From a virus, in the IMG/VR virus record IMGVR_UViG_3300031857_000610, positions 1-36,501 of that record: DNA of 36,501 nucleotides. The stretch is one strand, 5' to 3'. Of this stretch, positions 1,232-26,949 are shown one piece after another. The first letter of the stretch is position 1. Each line of letters opens with the position of its first letter. A program made the position numbers and the translations under genes. The notes under the pieces were generated by a model. That model made no database searches. It saw only the letters and a program-made list of their open reading frames with translations, and was not told the DNA's origin.

Positions 1232-1603
1232 ATGCGTATCAGAGAACTATTAGAAGGTAAAAAATTTAATGATTTAGACTTTGTCAAACAGGACGAAGAA
1301 GGCACAGATATCAACTATGATTTGATAGAAGATCTCGCTTTTTATATGCACAACGATGACGATGTGTATAGAAAACTTACTTTTCCAAGTGTATCACGCT
1401 GTATTGAAAGTGTAAAAAATAAAAAAGAACTTAATCCTAACATTTTTAAATCGGCTGTTGAAGAAAGTTATAAAAAATACATTAAAAAGTTTCCTATCCG
1501 TCAGCTACCAGATTCGCTAGATGAAGAACAATGTTTAGAAGTTTGTAAAAAACTTCACGACGATTTCCGTAAAGATTACGACGACGGCAAATACAAGGAC
1601 TAA
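1232..1603 (+). CDS. hypothetical phage protein with MRIRELLEG N-terminus
   Basis: The 123-residue charged, alpha-helical protein has no recognised domain. Its first nine residues, MRIRELLEG, closely match the starts of the next two genes (MLLRELFFN and MRLRELFEN). They also resemble the capsid-targeting propeptide of T4 Alt (MELITELFDE, from memory), which the prohead protease gp21 cuts after (L/I)xE. Here LLE|G would be the corresponding site. The rest is rich in Asp, Glu and Lys, with helices such as the segment around residues 60-90. An ACGGG ribosome binding site precedes the ATG. It may be an internal virion protein; this is inference. Confidence 0.65.
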   Translation: MRIRELLEGKKFNDLDFVKQDEEGTDINYDLIEDLAFYMHNDDDVYRKLTFPSVSRCIESVKNKKELNPNIFKSAVEESYKKYIKKFPIRQLPDSLDEEQCLEVCKKLHDDFRKDYDDGKYKD

Positions 1604-1605
1604 TA

Positions 1606-2820
1606 GTGTTACTTAGAGAATTGTTTTTTAATGAGTCTGGAGCATCTGTTGACGACGACAGCATGGAAAAGTACGGCCGGCCATTTAATCATCCAGAACA
1701 TTTTGTATTTTTCAAAGGTTCTAAAGGAACATTAGAAGCATTACAACACTTTAAAGAAATTGCAGAAGAACTTGAAGGCAAAACAACTGTACGCCGTAAA
1801 TGGGACGGTAATCCTCAAGTGTATTGGGGTAGAGAAGTCAAAGGCGGGCCGCTAATACTTGCAGGACACAATCAATGGTCGCGCGGTGTTAAAGGCGACA
1901 GCAAAGAAGCAGTATACAATTTTATTGCTAATCAAAGTGGCAAAGTTACTACACCAGAACAACAAAAAGAACGTCAACAGTTTGCACAACAATTTGCAAA
2001 TTTATATCCATTATTTGACGCGGCAACTCCTAAAAATTTTGTAGGATTTGTTTATGCTGATGCACTATTTGGAGTTGATCCTGGTCTAAATAAAAGATTA
2101 GATACTGGAGATAAGCAGTATCCAAAAGGCATATGGACATTCTGTCCTAATCCGAGAAGCAAAACGTGTTATCATGTAGATGCAGCAAGTGAGTTAGGAC
2201 AACGCATTAGTAAAGCACAAGTAATGGTAGTTGGTCACGGAACATTTGACAGCTTTGGTGCTGCAGATGAAGATCAGCAACCTATGGATGATTTTAGTAT
2301 GTTTAATGCCACTCCAGGGTTAATTGTTCAAGGACCTATCTATACTGATACTGCACCAACAATTGATACTACACCAATCGATGAAATGATTGAATATGTT
2401 AATGAACACGGTCCAGATGTTGATAACTTCATTGGCAGTTTACCCAATCCAGATAAAAACGGAATTTTTTATCCGTTCTTTAATCAAATGAGTAGACTAC
2501 ACGCAACAGGCCAACAGGATTTTGACAGTATAAATGGCAAAACATTTATTAGCTGGATGCAATCTAAAGGTGTAAGTGCTAAGAAACAACAACACATTGT
2601 CAATATGATTCAACAATATCCCGGTGGATTAGATTCTATCTTTTTCCTTATTAAAAGAATTAGAAACATGAAAGATGAGATTGACGCAGAAATAAAACGA
2701 CAACCACGTAAGGAAATATGGGACACTAATGGTGAAGGGCATGTTCGTTATGCTCAAAAACATCATAAATATGGTAACATAAAACTTGTTCCTACTACAT
2801 GGGTACCTGCTGGGAATTAA
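1606..2820 (+). CDS. KWDG-motif nucleotidyltransferase-like phage protein (DUF6267-like)
   Basis: The 404-residue protein starts at GTG 1606, chosen because it restores the Mx(L/I)REL N-terminus shared with its neighbours and has AAGGA upstream. Residues 60-75 read TTVRRKWDGNPQVYWG. The KxDG core (Lys65-Asp67-Gly68) resembles motif I of the ATP-dependent ligase/mRNA-capping superfamily, where the lysine takes AMP or GMP. It is followed by a FVGFVYADALFG strand like the region after motif III. Similar KWDGxPxxxxG proteins are common in T4-like cyanophages and are, as I recall, grouped as DUF6267. I do not see the full set of ligase motifs IV-V, so activity is unproven. The N-terminal propeptide-like sequence suggests packaging in the capsid. 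Confidence 0.7.
   Translation: MLLRELFFNESGASVDDDSMEKYGRPFNHPEHFVFFKGSKGTLEALQHFKEIAEELEGKTTVRRKWDGNPQVYWGREVKGGPLILAGHNQWSRGVKGDSKEAVYNFIANQSGKVTTPEQQKERQQFAQQFANLYPLFDAATPKNFVGFVYADALFGVDPGLNKRLDTGDKQYPKGIWTFCPNPRSKTCYHVDAASELGQRISKAQVMVVGHGTFDSFGAADEDQQPMDDFSMFNATPGLIVQGPIYTDTAPTIDTTPIDEMIEYVNEHGPDVDNFIGSLPNPDKNGIFYPFFNQMSRLHATGQQDFDSINGKTFISWMQSKGVSAKKQQHIVNMIQQYPGGLDSIFFLIKRIRNMKDEIDAEIKRQPRKEIWDTNGEGHVRYAQKHHKYGNIKLVPTTWVPAGN
2764..2771 (+). promoter_or_regulatory. weak candidate late promoter (CATAAATA)
   Basis: CATAAATA lies inside the end of the preceding gene, about 50 nt before the start at 2822. It matches the T4-family late -10 at seven of eight bases. A second CATAAATA occurs inside a gene at 20054 with no gene start close by, so chance matches clearly occur. 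Confidence 0.2.
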
Positions 2821-2821
2821 A

Positions 2822-3826
2822 ATGAGATTACGCGAACTATTTGAAAATATCTACGAAGAAGTGCCCGAAGGTGGGGAAAAATTTGACGGCGGATTAAAAA
2901 CCATTGGTATTTGCTACGGTCGTTGGAATCCTCCACACAAAGGCCATAGAGAAGTTTGGAAGAAAGCCAGTAAAAATCCTATTTGGTTTGTAGGAACTAA
3001 TGAAAGTACAGAAGGTCCTAAAGATCCATTACCTTACGAAGTTAAATTACAATGTATGGCGGCGGTATGGCCCGGCGTTGCAGGTCATGTAATTCCAGAA
3101 CAAGACTTATTTGTAATGGCCACAAACATTTATGAAAAATACGGTGAAAATGTTCACTTGAATGTTTATACAGATGAGGAATGGCTAGCAAGTAGTTTAC
3201 TAAAATACAACGGCATGATGAATCAAAAGCATGGCGGTTATAAATTTGCTCAAATTGATTGGAAGAAAACTGAACGATTAGCTCGTGCTACTGATTTGCG
3301 CGATAGTGTACGAAAAGGTAATAAGGTTAAGTTTTATAAAGATGCTGGAATTCCATCAACAGCTATGATTACTATTGGTGAAAAAGCGTATCCATTGTTT
3401 GATATAGTTGCTCATTACTTGCTCAAGTATCCAGAAAAAGTTTCTAAAAATTCTGCTAAGGTAGCTGTAGCAGAAGCTACTAGAGCAAAGATTACTCATA
3501 GGCAATCGCAATCATCTAGAGGTATTAGCACATATGGCGATGTTGAAAAAGCCAATTCTGACTATGTTGCGTTTAAATTAGGGCAAGCAATGGCATGCAC
3601 TGATGGAACTAACACTCCAGATATGGATGCTAAGAGTTGGTTTGGCAAACGTAAAACAATACATCCGTATACCGATGTTGAGCAACAGATGTTTATCAAA
3701 GCGGCTAAAGTAGTTGGGGCTGATGTAGAAGATATTAACCACGGAGATATGCGTAGTTTAGAACTAGACAGCACAAATAAAGTTAGCCCTGTAGCAAAAC
3801 CTAAAAAGAACAAGTACGGAGTATAA
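2822..3826 (+). CDS. HxGH nucleotidylyltransferase (cytidylyltransferase/NMN adenylyltransferase-like)
   Basis: The 334-residue protein has its start set at ATG 2822, because an in-frame ATG 36 nt earlier lies within the previous gene and adds non-conserved residues, whereas 2822 gives MRLRELFEN. Residues 33-42, GRWNPPHKGH, are the HxGH motif of the nucleotidylyltransferase superfamily, which transfers NMP to a phosphorylated substrate. ATDLRDSVRKGN near residue 156 corresponds to the second conserved motif (ISSTxxR in NMN adenylyltransferases). The C-terminal third (after about residue 210) is Lys/Ser-rich with no recognised domain. Substrate is unknown; NMN or a sugar/alditol phosphate are options. 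The propeptide-like N-terminus hints at capsid packaging. Confidence 0.75.
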   Translation: MRLRELFENIYEEVPEGGEKFDGGLKTIGICYGRWNPPHKGHREVWKKASKNPIWFVGTNESTEGPKDPLPYEVKLQCMAAVWPGVAGHVIPEQDLFVMATNIYEKYGENVHLNVYTDEEWLASSLLKYNGMMNQKHGGYKFAQIDWKKTERLARATDLRDSVRKGNKVKFYKDAGIPSTAMITIGEKAYPLFDIVAHYLLKYPEKVSKNSAKVAVAEATRAKITHRQSQSSRGISTYGDVEKANSDYVAFKLGQAMACTDGTNTPDMDAKSWFGKRKTIHPYTDVEQQMFIKAAKVVGADVEDINHGDMRSLELDSTNKVSPVAKPKKNKYGV

Positions 3827-3827
3827 A

Positions 3828-4265
3828 ATGGACGAGAAATTTCACCTAGCATTAAAAACAGCATTTGCTAGCGAATATGCTTTTTATTTAAAAGCACAAA
3901 ACTTTCACTGGAATGTTGAAGGATCAAACTTTCCACAGTATCACGAATTGTTTGGAAAAATTTACGAAGAAGTAGGTGGTATTATCGATGACTTTGCAGA
4001 AAATCTTCGCAAGTCAGGAACTTATGCACCTGCTAGTTTTAGTAAGTTTAGTATGCTAACTGAAATCAATGACGAAAATGGTGTACCTGATCCAGGTACA
4101 ATGTTGTCAGAATTGTATCAAGATTCTGAAACAATGGGCGGAGTATTTAAAGCTGTTTATCAATTGGCAGATCAAATGGGCGAATATGGGTTAAGCAATT
4201 TTTTTGCAGATCGTCAAGATGCACATAGAAAACACAGTTGGATGTTAAGAAGCACATTAAAATGA
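3828..4265 (+). CDS. dps: Dps-like ferritin (DNA protection during starvation family)
   Basis: At 145 residues it is a little shorter than bacterial Dps (about 150-180). The first helix contains NFHWNVEGSNFPQYHELF, the Dps signature. The ferroxidase ligands are all present with Dps spacing: His27, His39, Asp54 and Glu58. Dps proteins form 12-mers that oxidise and store Fe(II) with peroxide and may coat DNA. There is no long basic N-terminal tail, so direct DNA binding is less certain than iron oxidation. It starts 1 nt after the preceding stop, inside a module that otherwise looks virion-related, so it could act in the infected cell or be packaged. Family call is strong. Confidence 0.85.
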   Translation: MDEKFHLALKTAFASEYAFYLKAQNFHWNVEGSNFPQYHELFGKIYEEVGGIIDDFAENLRKSGTYAPASFSKFSMLTEINDENGVPDPGTMLSELYQDSETMGGVFKAVYQLADQMGEYGLSNFFADRQDAHRKHSWMLRSTLK

Positions 4266-4555
4266 AACAATACAGGATTACAACTGAGCATTTAAATCAA
4301 GACAGTCAAGACGACTGCTATCTTGCTCCAGATGATCCTATACACGAATTAAAAGCATTACAGTATCTAGCAGGACTAGGAAGTAATGCTAGATTACATG
4401 AATACAAAGTTAATCAAGGAAGTAACATTAGTGTTACAGGAATGCAGAATCAGGAACTTGAAAAAAAACATAATATTAGACCTGGTACACCTGAGTGGTT
4501 TCAACTTTGGTTTAGTTTGCCGTATTTGACGGGCGAAAAGAAGGTAGGAAAGTAG
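4262..4555 (+). CDS. conserved small phage protein
   Basis: ATG 4262 overlaps the dps stop (ATGA) and is preferred over an in-frame ATG at 4238 inside dps. The 97-residue protein is hydrophilic, starts MKQYRITTEHLNQDSQDDCYLAPDDP and ends in GTPEWFQLWFSLPYLTGEKKVGK; the GTPEWFQLWFS segment looks like a conserved aromatic motif. A pattern of this kind recurs in T4-like marine phages, from memory, without assigned function. No membrane segment, signal peptide or enzyme motif is seen. Coupling to dps and to the next gene (1 nt gap) places it in the same operon. Confidence 0.7.
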   Translation: MKQYRITTEHLNQDSQDDCYLAPDDPIHELKALQYLAGLGSNARLHEYKVNQGSNISVTGMQNQELEKKHNIRPGTPEWFQLWFSLPYLTGEKKVGK

Positions 4556-4556
4556 C

Positions 4557-4826
4557 ATGAAAATAACAGAAATTATTATAGAAACTGCTACAGCGGGTTC
4601 GACTAGTGCAGGCAATATTGCTACTGTTGATGCTCCGCATATTAGCCCAGGCAAGGCTCGAGGTAAATCAAGCTATATTGGTAACCCTTGGGGTGGAATA
4701 AGTGGTACAAAGGCTCCAGCACAGCCTAAAATCAAGCAGAAAAAGAAGAAAGATGGTACTGCGGTTAATGCGTTAGACCTAAAAGGTACTAGTATTTTCG
4801 GTGGTAAGACTATTAAAAGACGCTAA
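4557..4826 (+). CDS. small basic Gly/Lys-rich phage protein
   Basis: The 89-residue product starts MKITEIIIETATAGSTSAGNIATV, continues with a Gly/Ser/Pro-rich stretch (HISPGKARGKSSYIGNPWGG) and ends strongly basic with a KIKQKKKKDG segment and KTIKRR. No fold can be recognised. The opening MKITEIIIE|TATAG again resembles a T4-type capsid-targeting peptide with a possible IIE cleavage site. A basic, disordered, packaged protein similar in nature to T4 internal proteins is a reasonable guess. It starts 1 nt after the previous stop, with AGGAAAG as a possible ribosome binding site. Confidence 0.65.
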   Translation: MKITEIIIETATAGSTSAGNIATVDAPHISPGKARGKSSYIGNPWGGISGTKAPAQPKIKQKKKKDGTAVNALDLKGTSIFGGKTIKRR

Positions 4827-4850
4827 ATATACGATAACGGAGTTTTTACT

Positions 4851-6614
4851 ATGCACGACGACATGCAACCAGATAACATGAACCAAAGACCAATTGGATC
4901 CCACGGTGAATCAGATCGCGAAGGCGCAATGGCCAAAGCTGATCTTTATAAACTAGCCAACTACAGTTTAAAACTGTTTAAAAAACTAGACGATGATGCC
5001 CAACTTGAAGGATGGGTACAGGCTAAAATTACTAAAGCCGCTGACTACATTGCCAGCGTATTCCATTATTTAGAATATGAAATGGAATTTAGCGATTATG
5101 GTGCTAGATTAGACAACAATGAAATGTATAACGAAAGCCAAAAACTTGAACTTAAAAACAAGTTAATGGAAGCTAAAGCTAAAGTTGCAGAGCTAAAGAA
5201 ACTCCAAGCTAGTAAAAAAGCCAAAGAAGAAAAAGTCAAAGAAGGCTTTGATGAAAAATCTAAAGTTGGCGATACATATAAAACCTCCGCAGGTAATACT
5301 GTAACTAAAACTGCAACAGGATTAAAGCATGAGCGTCCTGCATCAAGTTTCAGCGATGAAGATGGAGATGACAAGTCTGGTAAGGGTAAAAAGAGTCATG
5401 CCAAGGCAATGTCAGCTGCTGAAAAGAAAGATCGTGCTCCAAAATTAAAACAGTCTAAGACTGGTACATGGGGCATGAAAGACGGTGAAAAATTTGACAA
5501 TCGTAAGACTAACGAAAGTGCAAAGCCAGATTTTTTAGACATGGACAAAGATGGCGATAAAAAAGAGCCGATGAAAAAAGCAGTTGCTGATAAGAAGAAA
5601 AAACCTTTTGATAAAAAAGTAGATGAAGCTTCTGACGATAAATGCAATCATACGCCAAAAGGTAAGTCATGTCCAGTGCATGGCATGAAAGAATGCAGTA
5701 TGGAAGAAAGTGCGCCAAGTGCGGGTATGACCAAGAAGGAGAAATCTGCTGTAGTTAAAGACGCCAAAGCAGGTAAAGACATTGGCAAGCCAGGAAAATC
5801 ATTTGACAAAGTAGCCAAAGCTGCTGGTGGTGGCGAAAAAGGCAAGAAAATTGCTGCGGCCGCTATGTGGAAGAATAAAGCAAAAAGTCTTAAAGAAAGT
5901 TTACAAGCGTTACTTCCAGAAGAACAATTAAGTGAAGAAGATAAAGCACAGGCACAGGCTGGTTTACAGGCTTTGCTTAACTATGCAAAACAAAATGATC
6001 CTGAAGGACTTGCTCAAGCTGTACAACAAGGCGGACAAGCTGTAGAAAACTATTTTAAAAATTTAGCAAATACTATACCAGGTGATACAACAGGATCTGC
6101 TGAAAATACACCAGCAGAACCAAAAGATATGCCAGGTGCAGGAGATGTATCTGCCGAAGAAGGTGTTGGAATGGATATTGCGAATGCCGCAACATTTGGA
6201 CTTGCACAACCTATAGTTCAAGGTGCTCAAGGAATAGCACAAAATCCAGGAGCATTTGTACAAGGTGCAGCTAATCAAGCAGGAAAAGAAGTTGGTAATG
6301 TTGTTAACACCGTACAAGGTGCTGTACAAGGCGCACAAAAAATTGGATCTAATATAGTACAAGGTGTAACGGATGTAGCAAACGCAGCAAAAACAGGTTA
6401 TCAACAAGCTAGAGGTCAAACAACACAAACTCAGCCAACAACTGCAGCAGCACCAATAAAACAAGCACTAGTTAATAATCCGGCAATGATGCCTAAGGTA
6501 GGAAAGCAAGCAGCAGTTGGTGACTCGTCAATGGCTGCTAAAGTAGGCAATCCTCTAAGAGAATCTGATGAACTAGGTCGCATGAAACAATTCTTAACAC
6601 GTTTAAACGGATAA
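4851..6614 (+). CDS. long Lys/Ala/Gln-rich phage structural-type protein
   Basis: The 587-residue protein starts at ATG 4851 behind GGAG at 4839. Residues about 25-85 form a compact helical region (ADLYKLANYSLKLFKKL, LEGWVQAKITKAADYIASV, FHYLEYEME) that I recognise as a recurring segment of marine T4-like phages. Next comes a Lys/Glu coiled stretch, then a disordered Lys-rich region holding PDFLDMDKDGDKKEP (residues 226-240, like a single EF-hand/dockerin loop) and a Cys cluster Cx8CPVHGxxxC (Cys265, 274, 282; His277). The last third is Ala/Gln/Gly-rich with repeated VQGAQ/VQGA units and ends ESDELGRMKQFLTRLNG. Function unknown; a core or virion-associated protein processed during assembly is likely. 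Confidence 0.72.
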   Translation: MHDDMQPDNMNQRPIGSHGESDREGAMAKADLYKLANYSLKLFKKLDDDAQLEGWVQAKITKAADYIASVFHYLEYEMEFSDYGARLDNNEMYNESQKLELKNKLMEAKAKVAELKKLQASKKAKEEKVKEGFDEKSKVGDTYKTSAGNTVTKTATGLKHERPASSFSDEDGDDKSGKGKKSHAKAMSAAEKKDRAPKLKQSKTGTWGMKDGEKFDNRKTNESAKPDFLDMDKDGDKKEPMKKAVADKKKKPFDKKVDEASDDKCNHTPKGKSCPVHGMKECSMEESAPSAGMTKKEKSAVVKDAKAGKDIGKPGKSFDKVAKAAGGGEKGKKIAAAAMWKNKAKSLKESLQALLPEEQLSEEDKAQAQAGLQALLNYAKQNDPEGLAQAVQQGGQAVENYFKNLANTIPGDTTGSAENTPAEPKDMPGAGDVSAEEGVGMDIANAATFGLAQPIVQGAQGIAQNPGAFVQGAANQAGKEVGNVVNTVQGAVQGAQKIGSNIVQGVTDVANAAKTGYQQARGQTTQTQPTTAAAPIKQALVNNPAMMPKVGKQAAVGDSSMAAKVGNPLRESDELGRMKQFLTRLNG

Positions 6615-6618
6615 TTGT

Positions 6619-7236
6619 ATGGACATGAAGAAAATTCTACAGGCAATGGATGGCATTTCTACAAAACCTGTAGAAGGTTCTAATGACATGAAGAAATTTC
6701 TATCAGTTGTAACTGAAGGTGCAAATCCACATAAAGTTGCACTGCCAGTACAAATGACTATGCAACATTATCAAAAACCTGTTGCGAAAAAAGTATCTAT
6801 TATTGGCAAATACTTTCAACAAGTTGAAGAAGCAACATTACAACAACAAACAGAACGCAAACAATTAGTAAAACAATATGCTCAACAAATTAGTCAACGT
6901 GTATTAGAAAATCGTCGATATGGTGGTTTTGATTCTTATCAGCGTGATTACGATAGTAGCCGCACAGGCTTTGGTCGTCCTCGTAGAGAAATCGATGATG
7001 AAGCTAATTTAATGTATATCTATAGAGATGGCAGATTAAAACAACGCATGATTGATAATCACGAAGAACGTAGTGCTCATGCAGAGGGTTTTAGGGACAC
7101 GCAAGAAAAAGCATTAAAATTACACGGAATCATCCGTAGTAAATTTAATCCTAAAAAATGGGTACAAAAACAAGGAACAGAATGGGTACAAGTATTCCCG
7201 TTTGGCGAGCCAACGGATACAAATAAGGAACAATGA
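6619..7236 (+). CDS. conserved phage protein, possible virion/core protein
   Basis: The 205-residue protein opens with MDMKKILQAMDG, followed by SNDMKKFLSVVTEGANPHK and QMTMQHYQ, segments I recognise as conserved in T4-like marine phages. The middle is Gln-rich and helical (QQVEEATLQQQTERKQLV). The C-terminal half has a Tyr/Arg-rich GFGRPRREIDDEANLMYIY stretch and ends with EWVQVFPFGEPT. No catalytic motif, signal or membrane segment is present. It lies between two long low-complexity proteins and overlaps the next start (ATGA at 7233), so it probably shares their role in capsid or internal core assembly. A second ATG at 6625 is an alternative start. Confidence 0.7.
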   Translation: MDMKKILQAMDGISTKPVEGSNDMKKFLSVVTEGANPHKVALPVQMTMQHYQKPVAKKVSIIGKYFQQVEEATLQQQTERKQLVKQYAQQISQRVLENRRYGGFDSYQRDYDSSRTGFGRPRREIDDEANLMYIYRDGRLKQRMIDNHEERSAHAEGFRDTQEKALKLHGIIRSKFNPKKWVQKQGTEWVQVFPFGEPTDTNKEQ

Positions 7237-10200
7237 AAATGGATTTACGATCACTAATTGACAAACTAGACAGTATTGAACAAACTCAACTATTAACTGA
7301 ATCAGAAGAGTTAATGGAGAGAGTTGGTTTACGATTACAAGATATTGAACAGGCTGTAGGTCGAGAACTTGACGCTAACAAACGTGCATCAATAATTGGA
7401 GGGTTTGCTCGTAAATTTGGATATGCAGGATTATTTGATCCTGTTTCAGGAAAATTTGTTAATAAAGACGGACGATTTGCCAGCTTTGGTGCATACCAAA
7501 GCGAAGTTGAACAACTAGAAGACGAAGGTCTTATTCCTAACAGTGCAAAAACAGATGCACTTTTAGGTTTCATGGGTAAAGATGAGAAAAAAGCAAAACC
7601 ATCTGCTTATGCCAGAGCCGATTTGTTTGCTGCTATCGATAAAGCAGATGGCTTGTTAGACAAGGCACTTGCTGAGTCTGTTGAATCTAATACCGCAATG
7701 TTAGAAGGTAAAAGTCTTTCTAGTTTACTATTAGCAGAATTTGGTATTGATACAACCATTTTAGAAGCTATTACTCCTGAAGAACACCAGTTCCTTAAAA
7801 AGACAGTTAAAGATGCTGAACCTATCAAGCATAAAGCTGATGCTAATGCACTAATTGTACGATATACTAAAGAATACATTCCAGCAAGAGACAGACTAAT
7901 TGCACGTATTAAAGAAGTGATTGCAGCAATTAAACCAGCAAGACCAGCAGCACCAGCAGCAGCTCCGGCACAAGGAGAGCGAAGTGGTGGTACAGCTACA
8001 GTTAAAGAAAATGTTGATTTAGAAATGTTGCGTGAAATGTCGTTAACACCTCAAGGAAAAAAAGCAGGTGCCAAACTTTATGAACCAAGTATAACAGGAT
8101 ATCTAAGCCCCGATCAAGTAAAACATAACCTAGCGTTGTTAAAGAAAGGTCATGCTAAATTAGATTGGAGCGACCATGTGGGCAAAACAGTTAAAGACTG
8201 GGCAAATATGGCAACATTTGATCTAGCCGACATGACGGCAGCGGCGGCTAGTAGTGCGTTTGATCCAAATACTAGTTATGCAAAAGAAAGAGAAAAGCAA
8301 AAAGCAATTGATCAAGCATATAATCAAAACCCAAATGCTTTAAATGTACGCACAGCATCAGATGCGGTTGGTTATAAACTAGATGCAAACAATCCTATTG
8401 GTAACATAACTATGGGAGATATATTAGGTTTAGTTGGTCCTAGTGGTGTTACAGCAGTGTTTAATGCAGGAAAAAATGTAGCAACTAAACTAGGTGGAAA
8501 TGCTCTTGCCAAATTTGCAGGCGGAACAACCGCAGTAGTTGGTACATCACTTGGAACTAACCAACTTGATAATCTTGCTGTTGCAAATAGTCAAAGCAAC
8601 ACACCTGTAAGACCACAACCTGCTGCTAAGTTTGATAAGAATATTAAAGCATTCCAAGAAGAAGTATTTAAAATTGATAAGAAAGCATTTCCAAAATATG
8701 GCCGAGATGGAAAAATGGGCGGGGAAGTTCGTGCGGCTATTGCCAAGTATCCAGAAATAGCAAAGAAATATGGTTTAGCTCAAGCAAATACAACTACGAC
8801 ACAAACTGTACCAAGCGGTGAGGTTAATCAATCAGCTACACAAACTGTTGTTCCAGCTGATGCATCACCAACAGCATTAGCATCTGCATCTGCATCTGCT
8901 GATGGAACCGCAGGCGAACAAGAAGCTAGAAATGAACTAGACAAAATAAAAAATAATGCGGGTTTAACACAAGTAGCATCCGCTGAAGCGCCAGCGGCTG
9001 CAGCATCTGCTCAAGGACCAAACCCAGAAGATGCACCTGAGAAAGAAATGGGTGCTGGTACACAATTGGCATCTGCAAATGGTGCAGCTAATGCTTCTCA
9101 AGAAATTGATCCAAATCAAGTTAAAACTGCATTAGCTAAAGTAGGAGTTACAGGTAAAGAAATTACAGGTGATCAATTATTAGCACTTGCAGCTGAGTTT
9201 GGTATTACAGACGGTGCAGAAGTTGCATCAGCAGGTACTAGTGGCAGTTCAACTAGTGGCGGTTCATCAGGATCTGGTGCAAGCGCATTCATGAATCAAT
9301 CAGCTAAAAATACAACATCTAATGCCAGCGATGGTGGATTTACACAAGGAACTACTGCTACTGCTGAATCAATCGAATTAGAACGTATACTTGCATTATC
9401 TGGTTTAGCTGAAGACTATGACATCGACGAAGGCAAAACTGATAGCGGAATAAAATTTGCAAGTTGGGTTATTGATCAAATGATGGCAAGTGGTCCAAGA
9501 GGACAAAGATTAGCTCGACTTGCTAACGAACCATTAGCATCTAAAGTTGCCTCTCCTGGGGAACTTCGTGCTGCAAGAAAACTGGCTAAAGAAATTGAAG
9601 CAAGAGGACCTGTACGTCCAGCAACAGCGGCACCTGCTGCACCAGCGGCACCTGCTGCACCAGCAGCATTAAATCCAGCAGATGAAGCTGCTAGAGCGAT
9701 TGTAGGAAAAACTCCACAAGAACTTCAAGTAATGGCAAATAATCAAAGTCTTACTGCTTTACAAAGATCCGTTGCTAGAAAAGAATTAGAAAGACTTGGA
9801 ATAAAAGTAAGTGATGATGCTGCTAGTAAAACTGTTTCTAATGCAGAAAAAGTTGGCAGTAAGGTAGGTGATGATGCTGTTGCTAATGCAGAAAAAGTTG
9901 GCAGTAAGGTAGGTGATGATGCTGTTGCTAAATTAACAGCAGATGCAGCCAAAGGCGAAGGACTATTGTACAAAGTTGGTTTCCTTGGCGGACGATTTGC
10001 TCGTTTAATCAAGAATAATAAATTCGTAGCATTGTTAGCTGCGCTTGCGGCTCTAGGTATTGGCCTATATGTTGCTAATCGTAGTGATAAACCAGAACCA
10101 GGCCCTAATGGTCCTGAAGTTGATCCTCAACCAGTTGTTCCAGGCCCAGATGGTAAGTGCCCAACTGGTTATAAGTTAAGTCCAGATGGAAAAACTTGCG

Positions 10201-10774
10201 TAAAAGATACTGGACCAGCACCAGCACCAGCACCAGATCCAAAAGAAGAAGAACGCAAACGTCAACTTAGCGAACTTGAAGCTCTTCTTGCCAAACTATA
10301 TGGTGGTTGGCCAACCGACCCAGAAACTGCTGAAACTATTAAAGCAGGCGTTGCTGCTGGAGCCAAAGCACCAGAAGGATTTAAAGAAGGTAGTGTTAGC
10401 ACACAACCAGCAACTAGCGGCAGTAGTAGCAATAGTGGAGCACTAAGCGATAAAGTTGTAGATACTTCCGGTATGAACGCTCAACAACTAAGTGACCTAA
10501 GTTCTGCACAGACAGCTCGAATAGATGCATATAATCAAAAAAAAACTCAGTAACACCGGAACCAACAGCTAATCGTACTAGCCCTAAAGCAACACTAAGT
10601 TCTAAGGAAATGTCGGACATTGATACGGCATTTCAATACCCTAGTTTAGCCAAGGGTGAAGTTAAAAAAGCATACGATAATGCTACGCCTGAAAAACGTG
10701 CCGCTGTAAAATCATATTTAGATAGCAAAGGATATGATGCTAAAAAGACATTTGGTATAGATTTTTCATCATAA
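7233..10774 (+). CDS. giant Ala-rich virion-type protein with PG-binding-like domain and TM segment; needs -1 frameshift at 10539-10544
   Basis: The zero frame runs 7233-10553 (1106 residues). At ca[A AAA AAA]act (10538-10544) a -1 slip would replace the last two codons by 76 more and end at 10774, giving 1180 residues. Visible parts: an N-terminal helical domain (1-150) with TESEELMER; Ala/Pro linkers; a peptidoglycan-binding-like segment at 467-515 (IKAFQEEVF...RDGKMGGEVRAAI); an ESIELERILALSGL motif; a 15-residue tandem repeat at 870-899; a transmembrane helix at 931-948 flanked by Lys and Arg; and a Cys pair CPTGYKLSPDGKTC (976-989) after a Pro-rich linker. A membrane- or cell-wall-interacting virion protein is plausible. 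The break could instead be a sequencing error in the nine-A run. Confidence 0.7.
9840..9929 (+). repeat. perfect 45-bp tandem duplication within coding sequence
   Basis: Bases 9840-9884 and 9885-9929 are identical and in frame. Each encodes NAEKVGSKVGDDAVA. A related partial copy (VSDDAASKTVS) precedes it, so this helical linker has expanded by units of 15 residues. Perfect nucleotide identity points to a recent duplication. Confidence 0.95.
10538..10546 (+). other. A AAA AAA slippery heptamer (candidate -1 frameshift site)
   Basis: A run of nine A (10537-10545) holds the heptamer A AAA AAA in the correct zero-frame phase (caA AAA AAA act). Two sense codons later the zero frame stops at 10551-10553. 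The -1 frame is open from here to 10774. No strong downstream stem or upstream Shine-Dalgarno stimulator is evident, so transcript slippage or a homopolymer indel error are competing explanations. Confidence 0.6.
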
Positions 10775-10775
10775 G

Positions 10776-10806
10776 AAAAACGGCAAATTTATTTTGCCGT
10801 TTTTTA
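10776..10806 (+). terminator. rho-independent terminator
   Basis: AAAAACGGCAAA (10776-10787) pairs with TTTTGCCGTTTTT (10792-10804 and on) around a short loop, with the U-tract forming the 3' arm. It begins two bases after the stop codon of the -1 frame extension (10772-10774), not after the zero-frame stop at 10553. This supports the extension being part of the gene. Confidence 0.88.
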
Positions 10807-10815
10807 ACTCTTCTC

Positions 10816-10868: not shown

Positions 10869-11126
10869 ATGTCAGGACGCAACTACGGCGCAGAAGAAAA
10901 GGCAAAATTGGAAAGACTAATCAGTGAAGGATCTACTGTACTACGTGAAATCGAAGATCTTCAAGAAGGCTTGAAAGAAACAGTTAAGGCAGTTGCAGAA
11001 GAACTACAGGTAAAACCCAGTGTTATTAACAAAGCCATCAAAATTGCACACAAAGGCGATTGGCAGGCTTATAACGCTGATTGGGAAGAAATTGAAGCAA
11101 TTTTGGATATTACAAAACGTATCTAA
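10869..11126 (+). CDS. dsbA: DsbA-like double-stranded DNA-binding protein
   Basis: The 85-residue helical protein contains LKETVKAVAEELQVKPSVINKAIKIAHKGDW, which parallels T4 DsbA (IKDIRIRAKDELGVDGKMFNRLLALYHK, from memory). In T4, DsbA is a small dsDNA-binding protein that binds near late promoters and enhances late transcription. The pattern of a helix, a short turn with a Val-x-Pro and a second helix rich in Lys and His fits a helix-turn-helix. It follows a strong promoter and AGGAG, and lies just before DNA polymerase, as in other T4-like phages. Function by homology only; moderate to good confidence. Confidence 0.7.
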   Translation: MSGRNYGAEEKAKLERLISEGSTVLREIEDLQEGLKETVKAVAEELQVKPSVINKAIKIAHKGDWQAYNADWEEIEAILDITKRI

Positions 11127-25884: not shown

Positions 25885-26102
25885 ATACAGCTAAAGACAT
25901 AGCAGATGAACTTTTTAGAAAAATGAAATCTATGCAGAAATTTCAAATTAAAAGAGATGTGCCAGAAAATTGGATTCCAAACGGTCGTGTGCCATTTGAT
26001 ATTCACATAAAAAATGGTGTCGCTACATTTGATGTATATGCAGAAAGTTATATTGATGCAGAAGATCAAATAACACAATATTTGGAACAAGATGATGAGT
26101 AA
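25881..26102 (+). CDS. small phage protein
   Basis: The 73-residue soluble protein has an N-terminal helix (DIADELFRKMKSMQKFQI), a middle beta region (VPFDIHIKNGVATFDVYA) and an acidic end (EDQITQYLEQDDE). No motif is recognised. ATGA overlap before it and an 11-nt overlap with queE after it indicate co-translation with QueE. Confidence 0.6.
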   Translation: MNTAKDIADELFRKMKSMQKFQIKRDVPENWIPNGRVPFDIHIKNGVATFDVYAESYIDAEDQITQYLEQDDE

Positions 26103-26949
26103 AATTAAAATAGCAGAATTATTTTATAGCGTACAAGGCGAAGGACGGTACATGGGTGTTCCGTCTGTTTTCTTACGTACATTTGGTTGCAACTTTAAGT
26201 GCGCTGGCTTTGGTATGCCTAAAGGTCAATTGAGCACAGAAGTTGAAGCAATAGCAAACAGAATTTCAGAATTTAAACAGTATGAAGAACTTCCATTGGT
26301 ATCTACTGGTTGCGATAGTTATGCTAGTTGGGACCCACGTTTTAAGGACCTTAGTCCTATGCTTACAACAGACGCCATCGCAGATAGAATTGCGGAGATA
26401 TTGCCCTACAAAAAGTGGGAAGACGAACACTTAGTTATTACAGGCGGTGAACCGTTACTAGGTTGGCAACGTGCTTATCCTGATTTGTTAAGTCATCCTA
26501 AAATGGCAGATTTAAAAGAAATTACGTTTGAAACAAACGGAACTCAAGAATTAACAGAAGAATTTAAAGATTATTTAATACAATGGCAAATGCCAGACTT
26601 TGATAAAAATAGAGAAATTACATTTAGTGTCAGTGCTAAACTAAGCTGTAGCGGTGAAGCAAGGCATGAGGCTATCCGGCCAGAAATTGTTTGTTCATAT
26701 CAAGACGTTGGCTACACATATCTTAAGTTTGTTATAGCAACAGAAGAAGATGCAGAAGAAGCAATTGAAACCGCAGATATCTATCGCGAAAACGGTTTTA
26801 CAGGCCCTGTTTATCTTATGCCTGTTGGAGGTGTTGAAAGTGTGTACACCCTAAATAATCGTCGTGTAGCAGAGCTTGCGATGAAAAACGGATTGCGCTA
26901 CAGCGACAGGCTACAAGTACCATTATTTAAAAATGAGTGGGGAACATAA
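26092..26949 (+). CDS. queE: 7-carboxy-7-deazaguanine synthase QueE (radical SAM), with expanded cluster loop
   Basis: The 285-residue protein shows YSVQGEGRYMGVPSVFLRTFGCNFKC at the N-terminus (QGEG and the FxRxxGCN of QueE), VITGGEPLLG (SAM-binding GGEP), FETNGTQ and FSVSAKLS. QueE makes CDG from carboxy-tetrahydropterin using a 4Fe-4S cluster and SAM. The cluster motif is unusual: Cys33 and Cys37 are followed by 36 residues before Cys74 (STGCDSYASW), which replaces the usual Cx2C third cysteine. Expanded QueE loops of this sort occur in T4-like phages, from memory. Either ATG 26092 or 26095 may be the start. The next gene starts on the last base of its stop (TAATG). Confidence 0.9.
   Translation: MMSKIKIAELFYSVQGEGRYMGVPSVFLRTFGCNFKCAGFGMPKGQLSTEVEAIANRISEFKQYEELPLVSTGCDSYASWDPRFKDLSPMLTTDAIADRIAEILPYKKWEDEHLVITGGEPLLGWQRAYPDLLSHPKMADLKEITFETNGTQELTEEFKDYLIQWQMPDFDKNREITFSVSAKLSCSGEARHEAIRPEIVCSYQDVGYTYLKFVIATEEDAEEAIETADIYRENGFTGPVYLMPVGGVESVYTLNNRRVAELAMKNGLRYSDRLQVPLFKNEWGT

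Follow-up and report, generated by a model that had tools for sequence, protein, structure and literature searches.

A run of A near the 3' end of a phage gene that looks like a conserved recoding site for a -1 frame extension

A run of nine or ten A near the 3' end of a phage gene very probably serves as a functional recoding site that gives access to a short, conserved -1 frame. The gene lies in a 36.5-kb viral contig (IMG/VR record IMGVR_UViG_3300031857_000610, positions 1 to 36,501; here called the window, W). The initial annotation had left the choice between a programmed -1 frameshift and an indel in the assembly of nine A. Related phages from separate assemblies keep the arrangement, which therefore has the appearance of a genuine device of gene expression under selection and not of a sequencing error. 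We propose that the run shifts a minority of expression events to the -1 frame, bypassing the zero-frame stop, so that one gene would give rise to a short protein and to a C-terminally extended form with a small conserved helical domain.

The proposed slippage site in the window

The following features of the window are relevant here.

7233-10553, plus strand: carrying ORF (protein P0001), zero frame, 1106 aa, ending ...NQKKTQ
10537-10545, plus strand: slippage run of exactly nine A, zero frame CAA AAA AAA ACT
10551-10553, plus strand: zero-frame stop TAA, two codons past the run
10544-10774, plus strand: -1 extension, 76 aa and TAA; a linker, then a predicted helical domain (residues ~20-70)
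10776-10807, plus strand: inverted repeat and T-run, by its sequence a probable intrinsic terminator, common to most variants of the locus
10869-11126, plus strand: dsbA-like gene (PF11126), downstream edge of the variable locus, which served to collect loci

The ORF ends with ...CAA AAA AAA ACT CAG TAA, and its run of A contains an in-phase A AAA AAA heptamer at 10538-10544. The coordinates that had been given for the 1106-residue ORF, the heptamer and the stop two codons on are right. The 76-residue extension in an open -1 frame was borne out as well: the frame is free of stops already from 10535 up to the TAA at 10772-10774 and, read from 10544, encodes NSVTPEP...FGIDFSS. A conserved inverted repeat, AAAACGGCAAA-TTTAT-TTTGCCGTTTT, begins 2-3 bases past this stop. 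It had been described as a strong terminator two bases past the extension; repeat and T-run are found there, but a terminator scan, with its own rules for loop and tail, did not report the repeat at 10776-10807.

Runs of at least nine A are rare: ~743 kb of DNA from related phages, partly redundant, contains 8 distinct contexts. Four of these are the site described here, and the other four are read in frame. In the 14 genes of the window that were checked, only two in-frame A_AAA_AAA/G heptamers occur (8057 and 10538), both in 7233-10553. The other A AAA AAA in this gene (8057-8063), also in phase, has a G on either side. AAA makes up 78% of the Lys codons, and Lys-Lys pairs in the 14 genes are much more often written AAG AAA (17) than AAA AAG (6), an excess that may reflect avoidance of slippery A-runs.

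Carrier relatives and selection on the -1 frame

With the extension as query, eight loci came up among viral contigs. Two of these, L003 and L004, represent essentially the phage of the window itself and share its site. The site reads GAA AAA AAA AAG TAA in L005-L007, with ten A and then G TAA, and TCA AAA AAA AAG TAA in L008, L009 and L010, with nine A and then G TAA. A far more divergent carrier, L111 (L099/L111), was found by a DNA pattern for K-x-Y-L-D-x-K-G-Y-D; its site is GAA AAA AAA ACG TAA, again with the extension in -1. L103 gave only a chance match to the pattern and was rejected as a carrier. The nine carrier contigs carry eight different metagenome identifiers.

Four further variants besides that of the window (L005-L007; L008; L009/L010; L111) share its layout: A9/A10, TAA in the zero frame no more than two codons on, and the same domain in -1. 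The TAA directly follows AAG in L005, L008 and L009 and ACG in L111. Every carrier keeps nine or ten uninterrupted A, a length at which transcriptional slippage is considered (about nine or more in coding sequence), and each variant has a slippery heptamer of the form X XXY YYZ in zero-frame phase ahead of the stop, A AAA AAA in the window and L111 and A AAA AAG in L005, L008 and L009. At L005-L010 the extension is in -1 relative to the upstream gene. Its identity to the extension of the window is 71-75%, and 45% for L111. The extension protein is identical in L008 and L009 despite different zero-frame tails, and in L007 the gene ahead of it encodes a different, shorter protein, whose similarity to the C-terminal part of P0001 is marginal at best.

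For the last 57 codons, pairwise comparison of the W, L005 and L008 types yielded dS values of 1.3-1.6 and dN values of 0.04-0.09, with dN/dS at ~0.03-0.07. Differences at codon positions 1/2/3 were 4/2/22 between W and L005, 6/6/22 between W and L008, and 5/4/22 between L005 and L008. This combination of high dS and low dN argues that the -1 frame is translated and constrained, hence that purifying selection acts on it. The recurrence of run, nearby zero-frame stop and -1 continuation in diverged relatives, together with this selection, supports the programmed -1 frameshift that had been suggested initially.

The distribution of the extension points in the same direction. Homologs of P0001 that carry it are ~45% identical over the N-terminal two thirds, and relatives with neither run nor extension are L012 (63% identical) and L014-L017 (46%). 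Likewise, L114 (86%) and L115 (83% identical to the upstream protein of L111) end with ...GYTPE, without run and domain, and so do L116-L118 (70-73% identical to that protein) lack both. Homologs that end at the zero-frame stop with no -1 continuation had been named as evidence that would speak against frameshifting. Such homologs exist, but all of them (L012, L014-L017, L114-L118) also lack the A-run and the domain, which points to a cassette that is either there or missing, rather than to an indel. Judged from the sequences, run, stop and domain occur jointly or not at all, and the genes that carry them are dissimilar.

No further carriers turned up among the dsbA-locus contigs that were collected and surveyed, and searches of the jumbo phages Phosso and Atu_ph07 did not reveal the extension either. 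In a tree of the dsbA/polB segment the carriers fall into two separate clades, each interspersed with non-carriers. This patchy distribution fits a run and domain that are moved or kept as a unit; repeated loss from a common ancestor also fits the larger carrier clade. Tentatively, and at somewhat less than an even chance, we consider a self-contained recoding module (A9/A10, stop, -1 domain) that would pass in one piece from gene to gene at a hypervariable locus, even where these genes are dissimilar. Other frames are also accessible to slippage on a long run, so such a module would need little adaptation to a new carrying gene. The position just upstream of dsbA is hypervariable (L020-L096), and many contigs encode a different low-complexity or Pro-rich protein there beside conserved dsbA and polB.

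A homopolymer in a metagenomic contig is a classical place for a sequencing or assembly error, in which case the true gene would be one continuous frame. Contigs of several metagenomes show the same frame relation with different flanks and different run lengths (9 or 10), and in each lineage the error would need to have struck the same position. We therefore reject the nine-A indel, which is extremely improbable given that diverged relatives from separate assemblies share the arrangement and the -1 frame is under strong purifying selection. Hardly more credible is a recent frameshift mutation that has turned a once in-frame C-terminal domain into a decaying remnant. Several close relatives do without the domain, hence it is dispensable in some lineages, but the low dN/dS at high dS is not that of a remnant, every variant is out of frame in the same direction, and no in-frame version of the domain was found at this locus among the loci surveyed. 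The extension might also be an independent small gene next to the zero-frame stop, with translation past this stop achieved by reinitiation or by coupling, as coupling is frequent among phage genes. The initial annotation had noted that the extension lacks a start of its own, and the first ATG/GTG/TTG of the -1 frame is indeed codon 23 in the window, 29 in L005, 11 in L008 and L009 and 33 in L111. Several of these, including codon 23 of the window, fall within the conserved domain, and comparison between relatives revealed neither correspondence nor a common start near the stop. An independent gene would furthermore leave unexplained why the A-run is present in all carriers and absent from non-carriers, and we regard it as unlikely, if somewhat less so than the two former explanations.

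Possible slippage by polymerase or ribosome

Recoding on the A-run could occur at two levels. One A added by RNA polymerase can give the same product as a -1 shift of the ribosome, a possibility that was absent from the initial annotation. In many bacterial genomes, selection against slippage becomes evident once runs reach nine A (PMC1088944). In tssM1, an A11 run before the stop adds a C-terminal domain through transcriptional slippage at 20-25% (PMC4256274). Concerning the ribosome, A_AAA_AAG ranks well above A_AAA_AAA in E. coli (PMC5009743).

RNA folding revealed no stimulatory structure 3' of the run in the window (z +1.2 and +0.04), in agreement with what had been noted before, or in the L005 type (z +0.25), and ribosomal shifting would therefore be weak in both. 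Immediately 3' of its run, L008 has a two-tier stem (z -5.57 in an 80-nt span), with the main outer helix ~7 nt from the heptamer, and a strong 3' stem-loop is also found in L009. L111 has an 11-bp stem directly 3' of the run (z -6.05) with a long spacer of ~14 nt; spacers of frameshift sites are typically 5-9 nt, and 11-14 nt have been described. The hairpins of L008/L009 and L111 are non-homologous and lie in the variable linker, so they could be incidental. A shared homologous stimulator was ruled out, as the hairpins are unlike one another and are missing from two variants. Inspection by eye found no evident Shine-Dalgarno-like element upstream of the run, and Rfam gave no match above gathering score.

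For the window, we favor polymerase slippage because of the slippage-prone run length, the weaker A_AAA_AAA heptamer and the lack of a stimulatory structure, and estimate that the balance tips slightly from the ribosome to the polymerase. RNA polymerase would add one A (or remove two), yielding the -1 product. In L008/L009 and L111, given their strong 3' stem-loop, -1 slippage of the ribosome is no less likely than that of the polymerase, and the two mechanisms may act together. By either route, we infer that slippage yields the extended protein in a minority proportion.

The strongest competitor differs from this explanation in mechanism only, with the product shared: pure -1 programmed ribosomal frameshifting, in which two lysyl-tRNAs slip in tandem on A AAA AAA or A AAA AAG and the polymerase plays no part. 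It accords with the in-phase heptamer in all variants, the highly shifty A_AAA_AAG immediately ahead of the stop in L005, L008 and L009, the strong stem-loops of L008/L009 and L111, and phage precedents with C-terminal extensions (PMC5009743). It fits less well with the window and the L005 type, which have no 3' structure, and with the upstream side, where no Shine-Dalgarno-like sequence is evident by eye. Moreover, nine or ten A are kept, which is more than a heptamer requires, even if codon choice could explain part of this. We give ribosomal slippage as the sole mechanism a substantial chance that stays below one half. The contrast of L111 with L114/L115, and the variants with and without stem-loops, form a natural test of polymerase against ribosomal slippage with the same output.

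The extension domain, its carriers and known systems

An AlphaFold2 model based on a four-row alignment predicts, with moderate confidence, helices at residues 20-31, 33-46, 49-62 and 66-70 (pLDDT 76-86 over extension residues 21-70). The model is all-helical, there is no Pfam match above cut-off, and the extension is thus no Ig-like beta-sandwich. PHROG and Pfam gave no convincing assignment (weak match to phrog_6783, E 0.016), and fold and sequence searches of the PDB with the domain found no relative. A search of bacterial genomes gave no relative. Named phages searched with the window region and with P0001, at the DNA and at the protein level, gave no match. With the extension alone, tblastn against named phages gave a single, weak match, QPX48005.1 of Synechococcus phage S-SRM01 (E 0.4). 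The top viral Foldseek match is a 536-aa protein of S-SRM01 (E 0.67, prob 0.77), and QPX48005.1 also has 536 aa. The extension profile scored 20.2 bits on QPX48005.1 residues 391-436; in 2000 shuffles the score reached 7.3 at most. QPX48005.1 likely carries an in-frame relative of the domain; the S-SRM01 domain as query identified no further phage. Its gene sits among baseplate genes, adjoining an M23 peptidase and a hub lysozyme, and this position suggests, by association, a virion role of the domain. The match is distant, and in QPX48005.1 the domain is in frame and internal, within a Pro-rich, partly hydrophobic baseplate-cluster protein.

P0001 itself is of low complexity, with a hydrophobic segment at ~930-950, a Pro-rich linker and a possible peptidoglycan-binding-like stretch near residues 466-505. 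The window gene seems to be matched by two genes of L007 (3649-5986), one of 415 aa with PG_binding_1 and one of 360 aa with a hydrophobic segment, which suggests fusion or fission. Several genes of the upstream cluster, including 7233-10553, have short N-terminal motifs in common (MRLRELFE, MKMDLRSLIDKLDSIE, MKNLRDYINIVE), and similar short starts (MRIRELLE, MRLRELFE, MKITEIIIE) are seen across the structural-like cluster at 1232-7300. Internal proteins of the T4 type are targeted to the capsid by an N-terminal peptide that the prohead protease cleaves. The motifs seen here, which only resemble one another, are possibly capsid targeting peptides, recalling those of T4 internal proteins (PMC3012670). 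Our working guess is that the product is a virion or ejected protein, and that the domain probably helps to place or anchor the subset of copies that would carry it as an additional anchoring or binding domain.

The DNA polymerase of the window is nearest to those of the jumbo phages Phosso and Atu_ph07 (46-50% identity), and the phages of this locus have a DNA polymerase nearest to T4-like jumbo phages. The Atu_ph07 polymerase is annotated as two adjacent CDS (L019, 10001-12970). The window further encodes a fragment of a ClpB C-terminal domain (1-552), in the same gene stretch a ferritin/Dps-like protein (3828-4262), and a protein that by eye resembles a radical-SAM QueE-type enzyme (26092-26949, YSVQGEGRYMG). 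A queE-like gene is also present in Phosso and hints at deazaguanine chemistry.

Callers that follow a single frame miss this extension, and where a metagenomic phage gene has an A-run next to a stop, relatives should be compared before the run is dismissed as an indel. A close counterpart of the window site is tssM1 of Citrobacter rodentium (PMC4256274), which likewise has a long A-run shortly ahead of the stop, a C-terminal domain in another frame and no ribosomal stimulators. That gene belongs to a bacterial secretion system, its run counts 11 A and slippage was measured there, whereas here we infer it. In E. coli dnaX, the shorter product comes from the shifted frame. The dnaX heptamer A_AAA_AAG (PMC5009743) is the same as in L005, L008 and L009, and L008/L009 and L111 have a 3' stem-loop, but no upstream Shine-Dalgarno stimulator is evident here. 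Among phages, C-terminal extensions by frameshift are known from the coat protein of T3/T7, Lactobacillus phage A2 and Listeria phages (PMC5009743), where a minority product gains a domain near the zero-frame stop. Ig-like and other frameshifted extensions are carried by different proteins in different phages, as is the domain described here. Unlike the Ig-like extensions, it is a small predicted helical domain at an A9/A10 site, on a protein that is no recognised coat or tail-tube protein. An uncharacterised domain would thereby join the phage proteins extended by recoding.
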